DNA from: Candidatus Poribacteria bacterium | GTDB lineage: Bacteria; Poribacteria; WGA-4E; WGA-3G | Reading direction: 5' to 3' | Length of the DNA: 64,000 nt | Assembly (NCBI GenBank): GCA_021295715.1 | Contig: JAGWBV010000003.1 | Location: forward strand, 83,400-147,399 | Shown: positions 14,391 to 28,966 of the stretch, in pieces | Position numbering within the stretch: position 1 is the first letter of the stretch | How the letters are laid out: each line of letters opens with the position of its first letter | The notes under the pieces: model-generated | Told to the model about the DNA's origin: nothing | Database searches by the model: none | Seen by the model: only the letters and a program-made list of their open reading frames with translations | Position numbers and translations under genes: made by a program

Positions 14391-15452
14391 ATGAAACGCT
14401 TGATTTTTGAAGATATATACAGTTGGGGGGTCTTTAGCCGAGACCGTCAGATAGACTTTAATGGACATTTGTGGGTGCGTCCAGACGGAAACATCCTGAT
14501 AGATCCGGTTCCAATGTCTGACGACGACCAAGAACACCTGAAAGCCCTTGGTGGCGCGAAATCGATCATTTTGACGAACGCCGATCATGAACGTGAAGCC
14601 GCTGCCTTTCAGAAATGGACGGGGTCAGACGTGATTGTTCACGCAGCCGATGCCGACGCGCTGAACATCACAGCCGCTCGAACGCTTCAGGACCATGAGA
14701 CGATTGTTCCGGGATTACACGCCATCCATCTCAGGCACGGAAAAACGCCTGGTGAGATTGCCCTCTATTTTCCCGAGAAACAGACCGTCCTGTTCGGGGA
14801 TCTTGTGGTAGGTGAACCGATGGGCGCGCTGACGCTGCTCGCCGATAGTAAGCTGAGCGATCCACCGAAAGCGGCACTTGAACTGCGCAAAATTTTGGGA
14901 CTCCGATTTAATACAATCCTTGTCGGTGACGGTCACTCCATCTTTAAAGATGCGCGCCAATACCTCATTGACTGTCTGCAAGCGCGTCGCGATATCTACA
15001 TCAACCGCATTCATGTCGATGAAATCGCGTGGCAGCATAAAAATGCGCCACACCCATACGACTTCGAGGACAAGGACATCGACCCGCTCATCGGTGGCAA
15101 GAATTTAGGGTATCGCGTGATTCGACTACAACCCGGTAAGATGAGTTTCCCGATGCATTTCCACAATTTCGGAGAGGAGATGTGCTACGTCATGGAGGGT
15201 GCTTGTACGCTTAAAACCCCGCGAGGCGATGTAGAAGTCAGTGAAGGCGACTTCCTTGCGTTTCCGCCGGGCACCATCGGTGCACATAAGTTTGTAAATA
15301 GCAGTGATGCACCGGTCACGTTGTTCATTCTGGGCACGACTACACCGCACGATGTGAGTGAATATCCCGATTCTAATAAGGTCCTCCCGTATGCAGTCGG
15401 AAAGATTTATCGTAGAGACCCAAGTCTGAGTTATTGGGATGGCGAGGTTTAA
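14391..15452 (+). CDS. Metallo-beta-lactamase-fold / cupin fusion protein
   Basis: 353 residues with two domains. Residues 1 to about 205 look like a metallo-beta-lactamase fold (NILIDPVPM, LTNADHEREA, TVLFGDLVVGEP, TILVGDGHSIF). The canonical HxHxDH metal motif is degraded: only D65-H66 remain of it, while D137 and H182 are kept. Residues about 240-330 form a cupin with metal ligands H256, H258, E262 and H299 (PMHFHNFGEEMCYVMEG, FPPGTIGAHKF). The cupin half looks intact and the hydrolase half altered. The gene is convergent with the sulfatase, only 6 bases apart. The function is unknown. Confidence 0.75.
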   Translation: MKRLIFEDIYSWGVFSRDRQIDFNGHLWVRPDGNILIDPVPMSDDDQEHLKALGGAKSIILTNADHEREAAAFQKWTGSDVIVHAADADALNITAARTLQDHETIVPGLHAIHLRHGKTPGEIALYFPEKQTVLFGDLVVGEPMGALTLLADSKLSDPPKAALELRKILGLRFNTILVGDGHSIFKDARQYLIDCLQARRDIYINRIHVDEIAWQHKNAPHPYDFEDKDIDPLIGGKNLGYRVIRLQPGKMSFPMHFHNFGEEMCYVMEGACTLKTPRGDVEVSEGDFLAFPPGTIGAHKFVNSSDAPVTLFILGTTTPHDVSEYPDSNKVLPYAVGKIYRRDPSLSYWDGEV

Positions 15453-20330: not shown

Positions 20331-20381
20331 CGATACGCTCACACGAGTTGGTTGCACCATCTCCGATAATAGGAGGAATAA

Positions 20382-22124
20382 ATGGATAACGAAGTCATGA
20401 CGAATGAAGAAAATTATGCTTTTGATGTAGCAGGCTATCTACACGTTCCGGGTGTCCTCAATCCAGAAGAGGTAGCAGTACTCAACGCGGCATTAGATGT
20501 CGTTGGAGAGCGTGAGACACTGTTAGGCGGAGAGAGTTCGCACCGCGAATTGTTCCGGGACCTACTGATCCATCCGAAATTGGTGTGGTATTTGAACCAG
20601 ATCATCGGACACGGTTTCCGACTTGATCAGGCACCTCAATTGTTGGGGAATCGGGAGGGTGAAGTCGGTTCAACACTCATCGGCGGCGACGAACCGAGAA
20701 ATCCCTCCTTAGCATATCGCCAACAAAACGGTCGGCGGAGTTGTCAGGGCGTGAGAGCGATCTGGGTGTTGGACGATGTTGAAGAAGGGGACGGTGGATT
20801 GGTTGTTGTCCAGGCAAGCCACAAGAGCAATGTCGAAACGCCTCACGAATTGGCGACCGGCACTGATGATATGGGGATAGTGGTGCAGCCGGAACTCAAG
20901 GCAGGCGATCTATTCTTGGTCGCGGTACCTACGCTCCAAGGGGTTCGACCGTGGAAAAGCGATCCGAAAAGGTTGTTGTCCTATTGGTATGCGGCGCGTG
21001 CAGCAGTGCAGTCCAATCCACATGGACCTTACTCAGAGACCGAATCTTTACCCGGATGGGCGGACGAAGCAACACCTGCGCAAAAGGCGGTCTTGTACGT
21101 CCCCGGATATAAGGGTTCAAGTCCACCACCGGTGATCAATACAGATGGCGAAGATACATGGGTGGAAGAAGATCCATCTGTCATTCACCCATCAATTTAT
21201 ACTCGCGACCCCAACTCAGGCATTGATGAGAAAGAATTTTACTTTTGGGATCTGAACGGGTATCTGGTGGTGCGCGGCGTGATGAATGAGCAGTGGCTTG
21301 CGGAAGCCAACGAAGCGGTGGATAAATTCCAAGATCGTATCGTCGTAGGTGAGGAACTCGCTCGCGGGTCGATAAGTCAGGCTGGCACAGGACGACCACT
21401 CCTGTCGGGGTTATTAGACTTACCAGAACCCTATAACGCACCGTTTCGGTGCATGATTGCGCATCCTACCGTGGTGCAGCGACTCAATTGGATGGGCGGT
21501 AGCGGCTATCGCACGAGTGGCGCGACCGTATTCTGCGCGGTTAAAGGAACATCGGGGCACTCGCTCCACGATGGCAACGAGCCAATGAGCCCCTCACGGG
21601 GTTATTATTTTAAGAATGGACGCAGTTATGCGGAGACCGTCACCATTACATGGCAATTGCGCGATGTCGAGCCAGGACTCGGCGGTTTCGCATGTGTACC
21701 AGGATCTCACAAGACCCAGTACTCCATGCCTTCCGGCATTCGGACGTGTGATGATACGATGGGTTTGGTGGTCCAACCTGTGATGAAAGCAGGGGACGTG
21801 CTCTTCTTCATGGACGGCGGTTGCACACACGGTGCCTTAGCGTGGAAAAATCCTGTCCCCAGACGCGGGGTCCTGATTAAGTACCAGTCAAAAAATGTCA
21901 ATTGGGGCGGTGGTGTGATTGATCCGCAGGAGCGGTGGGGTGATATGGTTGAAGATATGACCGAGGAACAATTCGCTGTCATGCGGGGCCCTGAACGGGA
22001 TGGTCGTCATCGGACTGTACCGAGACTGGTTGTGGAAGATGGGCAGGTGTCCGTTTCCTACGATCCAGAAGGGGATAGTTATGCATCAAAGCATCGACGA
22101 AAACCAGGTGAAAAGCAGGTGTAA
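20382..22124 (+). CDS. Tandem PhyH-domain protein with a degenerate N-terminal half
   Basis: 580 residues made of two PhyH-like halves (about 10-235 and 285-530). In the C-terminal half the likely iron residues are present: H396 in SLHDGNEP and H483 in GCTHGALAW, with a VPGSHKTQY block between. The N-terminal half has the same frame (STLIGGDEPRNPSL, VVQASHKSN, PTLQGVRPW), but the first histidine is replaced by isoleucine (I100) and the distal one is lost (L185/Q186). The N-half is therefore probably non-catalytic. AGGAGG precedes the ATG. The protein is about twice the family's usual length. Confidence 0.88.
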   Translation: MDNEVMTNEENYAFDVAGYLHVPGVLNPEEVAVLNAALDVVGERETLLGGESSHRELFRDLLIHPKLVWYLNQIIGHGFRLDQAPQLLGNREGEVGSTLIGGDEPRNPSLAYRQQNGRRSCQGVRAIWVLDDVEEGDGGLVVVQASHKSNVETPHELATGTDDMGIVVQPELKAGDLFLVAVPTLQGVRPWKSDPKRLLSYWYAARAAVQSNPHGPYSETESLPGWADEATPAQKAVLYVPGYKGSSPPPVINTDGEDTWVEEDPSVIHPSIYTRDPNSGIDEKEFYFWDLNGYLVVRGVMNEQWLAEANEAVDKFQDRIVVGEELARGSISQAGTGRPLLSGLLDLPEPYNAPFRCMIAHPTVVQRLNWMGGSGYRTSGATVFCAVKGTSGHSLHDGNEPMSPSRGYYFKNGRSYAETVTITWQLRDVEPGLGGFACVPGSHKTQYSMPSGIRTCDDTMGLVVQPVMKAGDVLFFMDGGCTHGALAWKNPVPRRGVLIKYQSKNVNWGGGVIDPQERWGDMVEDMTEEQFAVMRGPERDGRHRTVPRLVVEDGQVSVSYDPEGDSYASKHRRKPGEKQV

Positions 22125-26819: not shown

Positions 26820-26932
26820 TGTTAGTGATTGTACGAGGCTCGATCAAGAGCGTTTTCTGCCCATACCTGCCATTCCGTTAGTTGTTTAAAACTCTTTCTA
26901 CGAATTCAAATTACCTATTGAGAGAAGAAAAA

Positions 26933-28966
26933 ATGAAACGATTTTCAAGAAGTATCTGGATCATCGTATGCCTTTATGCCACCATTGCATTTGCCCAATG
27001 GCCACAATGGCGCGGACAAAACCGAGACGGCATTCTGACACAATTCTCTGCACCATCGGTTTGGCCGAAACGACTGAAAAAACTCTGGCATGTAGAGTTG
27101 GGAAGTGGGGATGCCTCGCCTATTGTCAACGGAGGGCGGATTTATACGCACACACGGCAAGGCGAAAATGAAGTTGTTACTGCACTTGACTTTGAAACGG
27201 GTCAGGTGCTTTGGCGGGATTCCTATGGACCGGTGCCATATATGTGGCCTTGGCATGGGGCGGAATCGCGGGGTCAAGGACCATTTTCCACGCCAATACT
27301 TCACGATGGGGTTGTCTATACCTTGGGAGTCACACAAGCCCTCTCCGCATTTGATGCCGAAACGGGTCAGGTGCTTTGGCGAAAAGATTTCAAAAAACAC
27401 CTCGGCTTCGGGAGTTCAACATCGCCAATTGTGGAGTCAGGTTACTGCATCGTCCATGTAGGTGAACCGAAGAACGGCGCCTTGACGGCGTTTGACGCAC
27501 GTACAGGTGATGTCGCATGGCAGTGGACTGAAGATGGTCCATCCTACGCGTCCCCAATCTGCGTTGAATTTGAGGGAACAAAACAACTCATTGTACTCAC
27601 TCGGAAATACTGCATCGGCATCTCACCGACTACTGGCAAACTTTTTTGGAAAACGCCCTTTGAACAGGTGTGGGACGAGACTATCCCTACCCCGGTTCGT
27701 TACAAAGATACTCTTGTTCTTTCGGCTGCAGAAACAGGGACGCATGCAGTCCGTGTCCGCAAGGATGGTGATGAATGGGCAGCCGAACTGGTTTGGCAGA
27801 ATCCGAAAATTCACATGTACACTGCATCGTTTGTCTTGAATGGTGACTTGTTGTATGGATTTTCTATGCAGCGTAAGGGGCAATTCTTCTGCCTTGACCC
27901 GCGGACCGGAAAGGTCCTTTGGACAAGCGAAGGGCGGCAGGGTGAATCTGCGTCGATTGTCAGTGCAGGTGAGGTGTTGTTCTGTTTAACAGGCGATGCG
28001 GAACTGATTCTCATTAAGCCGAATGCACAAGCGTTTGAACCGATTGCTCGGTATTCAATTGCGGATAGAACGACTTGGGCGCATCCCGTCATTTTGGATA
28101 AGTACATCCTCATCAAGAACGCTTCACATCTCGCGCTCTGGAGTTTGGAAGGACTGGATATGGCTGATGCCGAGCCGGAAGAGATCACGACTGTTACACC
28201 ATCGGGACAACCGAGCGCAACGAGGCTTGAAACCATCATTTGGGACAAAGATGGTGCAGAGATGGTGCTTATTCCTGCGGGTGAGTTTCAGATGGGCAGC
28301 AATGCCGGTGATATGGATGAAAAGCCAGTGCACACCATTCACCTTGATGCCTTCTATATTGATAAATACGAAGTAACGGTCGCCCGATACAAACAGTTCA
28401 TTTCAGCTACCGGACACCCAGAACCGACAAAATTCTGGAATGATCCACAATATAATCAACCGAACCACCCTGTTGTCGGAGTGACGTGGTATGACGCGAT
28501 GGCGTATGCAGAATGGGCAGGTAAACGGCTGCCTACTGAAGCAGAATGGGAGAAAGCCGCACGTGGTGGTTTGGTTGCGAAGAAATATCCATGGGGTAAC
28601 ACCGCACCGGAAGATGACGAACAGCACCGCGCAAACTACGATTTTCTGGGAAGCGACGGTGGAAAGACAACGTTTCCTGTCGGGAGTTTTCCGCCCAATA
28701 GTTACGGACTTTACGATATGGCAGGCAACGCTTGGGAGTGGTGTCTTGATGAGTATCAGCAAAATTTCTACGCTGCCAGTCCACGAGAGAATCCGTTAGC
28801 GGGTGAGCCATTGTCGGATTATAAAGCTATAACATCGGAGCGTGTGATACGCGGAGGGAGTTGGGAAAACTATGATAATCTTATCCGGGTCAATAACCGT
28901 AATAGGGGGCATCCGACACGGACTTATTATCCAGGATTTCGGTGTGTTGTGCAACGTTCTCATTGA
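26933..28966 (+). CDS. PQQ-like beta-propeller fused to an FGE/SUMF1-like domain
   Basis: 677 residues. A signal peptide (residues 1-20, SIWIIVCLYATIAFA) is followed by PQQ-type propeller repeats (WPQWRGQNRDG, then repeated TALDFETGQVLW, SAFDAETGQVLW, TAFDARTGDVAW) to about 430. A formylglycine-generating-enzyme-like domain follows (MVLIPAGEFQMGS near 443, DKYEVTVARYKQF, RLPTEAEWEKAAR, GNAWEWCLD, VIRGGSW). In true FGE the copper-binding cysteines follow GGSW; here the segment reads RGGSWENYDNLIRVNNRNRG without cysteine, so sulfatase maturation is unlikely. The start at 26933 follows AGAGAAGAA. Likely periplasmic or secreted. Confidence 0.88.
   Translation: MKRFSRSIWIIVCLYATIAFAQWPQWRGQNRDGILTQFSAPSVWPKRLKKLWHVELGSGDASPIVNGGRIYTHTRQGENEVVTALDFETGQVLWRDSYGPVPYMWPWHGAESRGQGPFSTPILHDGVVYTLGVTQALSAFDAETGQVLWRKDFKKHLGFGSSTSPIVESGYCIVHVGEPKNGALTAFDARTGDVAWQWTEDGPSYASPICVEFEGTKQLIVLTRKYCIGISPTTGKLFWKTPFEQVWDETIPTPVRYKDTLVLSAAETGTHAVRVRKDGDEWAAELVWQNPKIHMYTASFVLNGDLLYGFSMQRKGQFFCLDPRTGKVLWTSEGRQGESASIVSAGEVLFCLTGDAELILIKPNAQAFEPIARYSIADRTTWAHPVILDKYILIKNASHLALWSLEGLDMADAEPEEITTVTPSGQPSATRLETIIWDKDGAEMVLIPAGEFQMGSNAGDMDEKPVHTIHLDAFYIDKYEVTVARYKQFISATGHPEPTKFWNDPQYNQPNHPVVGVTWYDAMAYAEWAGKRLPTEAEWEKAARGGLVAKKYPWGNTAPEDDEQHRANYDFLGSDGGKTTFPVGSFPPNSYGLYDMAGNAWEWCLDEYQQNFYAASPRENPLAGEPLSDYKAITSERVIRGGSWENYDNLIRVNNRNRGHPTRTYYPGFRCVVQRSH

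Follow-up and report, generated by a model that had tools for sequence, protein, structure and literature searches.

The question raised by this locus is why a protein should keep, within one chain, a PhyH domain devoid of the iron-binding histidines of its fold beside a second PhyH domain that retains them. The gene lies at positions 20382–22124 (stop codon included) of the 64,000-nucleotide stretch of a Candidatus Poribacteria contig analysed here (hereafter the window), on the + strand, as do all features given below. It begins with an ATG, preceded by an AGGAGG ribosome-binding site (20371–20376), and its open reading frame translates to 580 residues. An earlier note on this DNA had proposed a pseudo-oxygenase half joined to an active half, with a regulatory, dimer-like or substrate-binding role. 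By analogy with known systems of this fold, the protein is probably a single-chain PhyH pseudo-dimer, with a two-histidine, catalytic C-terminal half (C-half) and a non-catalytic N-terminal half (N-half) that builds or stabilises the C-half active site.

The Pfam PhyH family (PF05721) matches the whole protein at 1.4e-18, and each half taken alone exceeds the 22-bit cut-off of this family, with 30.3 bits for the N-half and 43 bits for the C-half. The N-half domain spans residues 4–210 (20391–21011) and the C-half domain residues 279–512 (21216–21917), with a linker of residues 211–278 (21012–21215) lying between the two domain envelopes. Alignment of the two halves with each other gives 35% identity over ~228 columns (E = 1e-31), with I100 (codon at 20679–20681) opposite the first iron histidine, H396 (21567–21569), and Q186 (20937–20939) opposite the distal iron histidine, H483 (21828–21830). 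The halves are thus homologous, as first proposed from their alignment, and the assignment of I100 to the place of the first iron histidine, the lack of a distal histidine in the N-half, and the retention of H396 and H483 in the C-half were all borne out.

The tandem is an established gene family and not a local accident. Full tandems were found at 75 loci of genome_contigs, with 53–96% identity, in MAGs of Poribacteria, which are sponge-associated bacteria, and of Latescibacterota and Gemmatimonadota, the phylum labels being those of the MAG records. At 96% identity, the named contigs nearest to the present one are from Poribacteria. Within the phylum, 59 of 85 genomes have tandem matches at E ≤ 1e-80, some of them partial. 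Two tandem genes lie within a few kb of each other in some Latescibacterota and Gemmatimonadota MAGs (loci L067–L069, L071, L072, L082, L088 and L093). The gene at 20382–22124 is the only true PhyH tandem in its own genome; other candidates for fused tandems, frames of 553–611 residues, proved to be adjacent genes in the same frame with a stop codon between them.

The loss of the iron ligands from the N-half is a property of the whole family. A search of other proteins with this arrangement, suggested in the earlier note, yielded 102 distinct tandem homologues from Poribacteria, Latescibacterota and Gemmatimonadota MAGs, on which the residue counts given here are based, and the first histidine is gone in all 102. 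Residue 100 is V in 51 of these, T in 10, I in 9, S in 9, A in 6, E in 4, L in 4, G in 3 and Q in 2, with others in the remainder. The distal histidine survives in few lineages (His186 in 7 of 102), with Gln in 89 and Trp, which marks one whole group, in 6. The canonical HxD/E...H triad is accordingly lacking from the N-half throughout the 102 tandems, and as the pattern is fixed in so many distinct sequences, it reflects neither chance nor assembly error. A missing histidine is a strong, rather than an absolute, sign of a dead site, as TauD retains 81% of its activity when Gln replaces its distal histidine (PMC2767507), and AspH variants with one histidine are active (PMC10947486).

Despite this loss the domain itself has been kept. 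G102, E104 and H147 are invariant in the N-half, with dN/dS ratios of ~0.11 for the N-half and ~0.035 for the C-half (Nei-Gojobori, 101 usable Poribacteria pairs), which are rough, the dS values of the pairs lying close to 1, but both of which are far below 1. The N-half is maintained by purifying selection, under looser constraint than the C-half.

The C-half in turn departs from an ordinary PhyH site. Both iron histidines are invariant (H396 in 102/102 and H483 in 101/101), as is R494 (21861–21863; 101/101), the predicted 2-oxoglutarate-binding arginine, positioned 11 residues past the distal histidine. Residue 398 (21573–21575), the carboxylate position of the HxD motif and a glycine in the present protein, is Gly in 70 tandems, Ala in 14, Ser in 13 and Asn in 5, and is never Asp or Glu, such that both histidines of the canonical triad are present and its carboxylate is absent. 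The description of this half as active therefore stood in respect of its two invariant iron histidines, but not in respect of a conventional site, as no homologue has the carboxylate. E400/E104 was considered as a substitute iron carboxylate for the C-half and rejected as a general ligand, since six of the 102 tandems have F, Y or A instead of E400 and four have D, and since other members of the clade described below do not have it.

As the HxD carboxylate is missing, the activity of the C-half is argued from the precedents of HygX and AspH, on which basis the C-half would be catalytically competent. A two-histidine site suffices for catalysis in the HXG hydroxylase AspH (PMC10947486). This aspartate/asparagine beta-hydroxylase resembles the C-half in being a 2-oxoglutarate hydroxylase with two histidines, and with HXG in place of the triad. 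The closest structural precedent is HygX, an enzyme of hygromycin B biosynthesis (PDB 4XC9, 4XCA, 4XCB and 4ZPI), which shares the fold of the tandem halves and has an LHGG motif without the HxD aspartate, but differs in being a single domain with one active site and an aminoglycoside substrate. The LHGGN of HygX corresponds to LHDGN of the C-half, and the titles of the HygX PDB entries describe an iron-bound form and a form with nickel and 2-oxoglutarate. The halves of the tandem, like HygX, have the PhyH fold; AspH is of a different family, which is not known to include a tandem of this kind. The authors of the HygX work reportedly describe variation in metal coordination.

The AF2 model of the whole tandem, built from an alignment of 42 tandems, has a mean pLDDT of 74.6 and a pTM of 0.78, with pLDDT below 50 at residues 396–415, around the active site; the model of the C-half, built from a deeper alignment of 60 sequences, has a pLDDT of 82 and a pTM of 0.77. 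Foldseek places HygX as the top PDB match for both the whole model (E = 7e-15) and the C-half model (E = 5e-15). By phmmer, the N-half stretch finds HygX at 3e-6; a single-sequence search with the C-half alone gave no significant match, and a profile search with the C-half finds TlxI, TlxJ, SyrB2 and CytC3.

Two of these proteins offer a direct parallel. TlxI–TlxJ (PDB 7VBQ) and TalA, like the tandem, consist of two PhyH-fold units, of which the non-catalytic one helps the other. TlxI lacks the 2-oxoglutarate arginine, has a short loop A, and forms a heterodimer with TlxJ (PMC12141560; PMC11880133), with the kcat/Km of TlxJ rising from 0.02 per min per μM alone to 1.63 per min per μM with TlxI (PMC12141560). 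TalA is a natural fusion of a TlxI–TlxJ-type pair (PMC11880133; PMC13311259), and resembles the bacterial tandem in being a fused single chain. The TlxI–TlxJ pair differs in that its members are fungal meroterpenoid oxygenases, encoded by separate genes and remote in sequence. The nature of the loss also differs, as TlxI lost the 2-oxoglutarate arginine, whereas the N-half of the tandem lost the iron histidines and keeps the equivalent arginine, R197 (20970–20972), in 98 of 102 homologues. Furthermore, the catalytic half of the bacterial tandem has no iron carboxylate, unlike that of TlxI–TlxJ or TalA.

A shortened lid loop in the helper is a further likeness between TlxI and the N-half. The segment from the helix near residue 35 (N-half) or 310 (C-half) to the FR motif comprises at most 24 residues in the N-halves and 46–48 in the C-halves, and from its position we infer that this segment is the lid, equivalent to loop A of the fungal enzymes. 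The N-half loop is ~22 residues shorter than that of all C-halves, and comparison of segment lengths places the stretch missing from the N-half at approximately residues 320–342 of the C-half (21339–21407). The same segment is 48–51 residues long in the closest single-domain relatives, and as it is 20–34 residues long in more distant clade members and HygX, loss of the loop from the N-half is likely rather than proven.

On the pseudo-dimer reading, the C-half would hold Fe(II) by H396 and H483 only, with R494 anchoring 2-oxoglutarate and a water or other small ligand standing in for the absent carboxylate. The N-half, with no His100, no carboxylate at residue 102 and mostly Gln186, would no longer bind iron in the conventional manner. 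With its shortened lid loop it would pack on the C-half, and may supply part of the C-half substrate pocket or stabilise that pocket, as TlxI does for TlxJ. The halves would thus pack as a dimer, with a structural or substrate-binding role for the N-half. Of the roles offered in the earlier note, a non-catalytic, dimer-like one agrees best with the homology of the halves, the fixed loss, the purifying selection and the TlxI–TlxJ and TalA precedents, albeit beside a partner that is not plainly "active".

The regulatory role offered in the same note would make the N-half a sensor, in which R197 binds 2-oxoglutarate, succinate or product without iron and gates the C-half. The retention of R197, which lies 11 residues past Q186 just as R494 lies 11 residues past H483, and of E104 in 102/102 tandems, although the iron ligands are gone, is in keeping with such a sensor. 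However, R197 could be structural, 2-oxoglutarate normally binds via the iron as well, and no such precedent was found in the PhyH family, making this role unlikely.

The missing carboxylate of the C-half also invites comparison with the Fe/2-oxoglutarate halogenases, in which case chloride would take the place of the carboxylate and the N-half would be a fused partner. Replacement of HXD/E by HXG/A is a signature used to mine halogenases, and residue 398 is Gly or Ala in 84 of 102 tandems. The halogenases SyrB2 and CytC3 have the PhyH fold and are among the matches to the C-half profile; enzymes of their type likewise have the HXG/A motif and two histidines, but they are single domains with a chloride site, and the tandems include Ser or Asn at residue 398 in 18 of 102. 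Close single-domain relatives of the tandem carry HGS or HGA, and the best structural match is HygX, not SyrB2. HygX shares HxG yet is no halogenase, AspH is an HXG hydroxylase, and removal of the Asp from hydroxylases does not yield halogenases. Halogenase activity of the C-half is thus decidedly unlikely. A variant in which N-half residues, for example the invariant E104 motif, complete the carboxylate-free C-half site, with chemistry such as the halogenation or oxidative cyclisation of a sulfated sugar, appears just as doubtful.

If the want of a carboxylate were taken to mean that the C-half is inert as well, the whole protein could be a binding or scaffold protein. PhyH proteins can turn purely structural, as in the case of the PhyH pseudoenzyme RESC14 (PMC12936278), which belongs to the RNA-editing complex of trypanosomes (PDB 8FNC). 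RESC14 resembles the tandem in that the fold has remained under selection after catalysis was lost, but has no active PhyH domain joined to it and works in an RNA complex. The invariance of H396, H483 and R494, the C-half dN/dS of 0.035, and the fact that HygX, whose motif is the same, was crystallised in an iron form and in a nickel form containing 2-oxoglutarate, make a wholly non-catalytic protein very unlikely.

Lastly, a catalytic N-half holding metal by non-canonical residues (e.g. E104 and Q186, or H186 in some lineages), for which the invariance of E104, His186 in 7 of 102 tandems and the ability of single-histidine proteins of the superfamily to work might be cited, is highly improbable, because a catalytic site would not vary as residues 100 (freely V/T/I/S/A/L/G/Q/E) and 186 (Trp in one group) do, because residue 102 is always Gly, and because the invariant H147 is matched by an equally invariant H443 in the C-half, as part of a structural PGSH motif.

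The origin of the pseudo-dimer was addressed with a FastTree domain tree of 170 sequences, comprising all PhyH domains detected in this genome, the tandem halves, the pair genes described below and the HygX segment. The N-halves and C-halves are sister clades (support 0.949), so that the two halves can be accounted for by a single internal duplication and a single subsequent loss. Single-domain proteins with LHGG, LHGS and related motifs surround them, and HygX falls within the same 56-member clade, with support of only 0.0–0.24 at the joining nodes. The simplest history suggested by these sequences is that a two-histidine ancestor was duplicated and fused, and that the first histidine had gone from the N-half by the time the known tandems split from one another; the position of the root and the sequence of these two events belong to this reconstruction rather than being read directly from the tree.

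The tandem belongs to a genome rich in this fold. A 2014 study described PhyH proteins as abundant in Poribacteria (PMC3909097), and the present 5.1 Mb genome has 139 PhyH matches, with at least 8 PhyH genes in the window. Approximately 20 of the 22 single-domain clade members in this genome have no iron carboxylate, and these ~20 HxG/A/S/T proteins are likely to be two-histidine oxygenases. Members of this carboxylate-free group carry HxG, HxA, HxS or HxT, for example LHGG, LHCA, LHNG and FHGS. The nearest single-domain relatives of the C-half are ~40% identical to it within the same family, and 52–53% within the same order. LHGS or LHGA is the motif of the closest single-domain relatives, which often occur as adjacent gene pairs and carry the first histidine in both copies; the LHGS/LHGA proteins of these bacteria resemble the C-half in their two histidines and long loop, but are not fused. 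Adjacent pairs of single-domain FHGSSG genes (L245–L264, e.g. L250 and L253), ~40% identical to the C-half, are found in most genomes of the family, and their products are possibly heteromeric pairs. Several other PhyH domains of this genome appeared to have no first histidine, but this was mostly misalignment, with LHCA or a shifted HxD present. Another PhyH protein of the genome, of 318 residues (L016, G000:C56), has Gln at the distal histidine position (HKG...Q).

Very few pseudo-oxygenase partners are known in the Fe/2-oxoglutarate superfamily, and reviews describe them as fungal and recent. The novelty of the tandem is lowered by the fact that pseudo-partners and a fused pair of the PhyH fold were known beforehand; what is new is the bacterial lineage, the strict conservation, and a catalytic half free of the carboxylate. 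No description of this PhyH tandem was found in a search of an open-access library. With more than 100 sequences from three phyla and both units in one chain, the family provides a natural series for the question of why a dead half is kept, in which the first histidine of the N-half is lost in all members and the distal histidine is kept, then replaced by Gln or Trp. Additionally, the tandem and the ~20 single-domain relatives mark a sizeable bacterial PhyH group in which the iron carboxylate is absent and which searches based on HxD would overlook.

The genomic neighbourhood offers a lead to the substrate. A sulfatase gene (Pfam PF00884; 18906–20330), a possible operon partner, ends 51 nt upstream of the tandem gene, and an orthologue with 72% identity lies near a 60%-identical tandem in several Latescibacterota MAGs. 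Across lineages, no neighbours other than sulfatases recur, these being present at 31 of 74 loci overall and 14 of 33 outside Poribacteria, but this association is a lead only, given the non-independence of the loci and the high number of sulfatases in the genome (48 hits in 5.1 Mb). Taken together with HygX, the sulfatase neighbour allows a guess that the substrate may be a sulfated carbohydrate. In Poribacteria, creatininase-family and LamG-like genes are also frequent neighbours of the tandem. Elsewhere in the window, a gene for a Lactamase_B_5 and cupin fusion protein (14391–15452) is conserved in the Poribacteria loci, and an open reading frame at 26882–28966, read from its translation, apparently joins a PQQ-type beta-propeller to a C-terminus resembling the formylglycine-generating enzyme.
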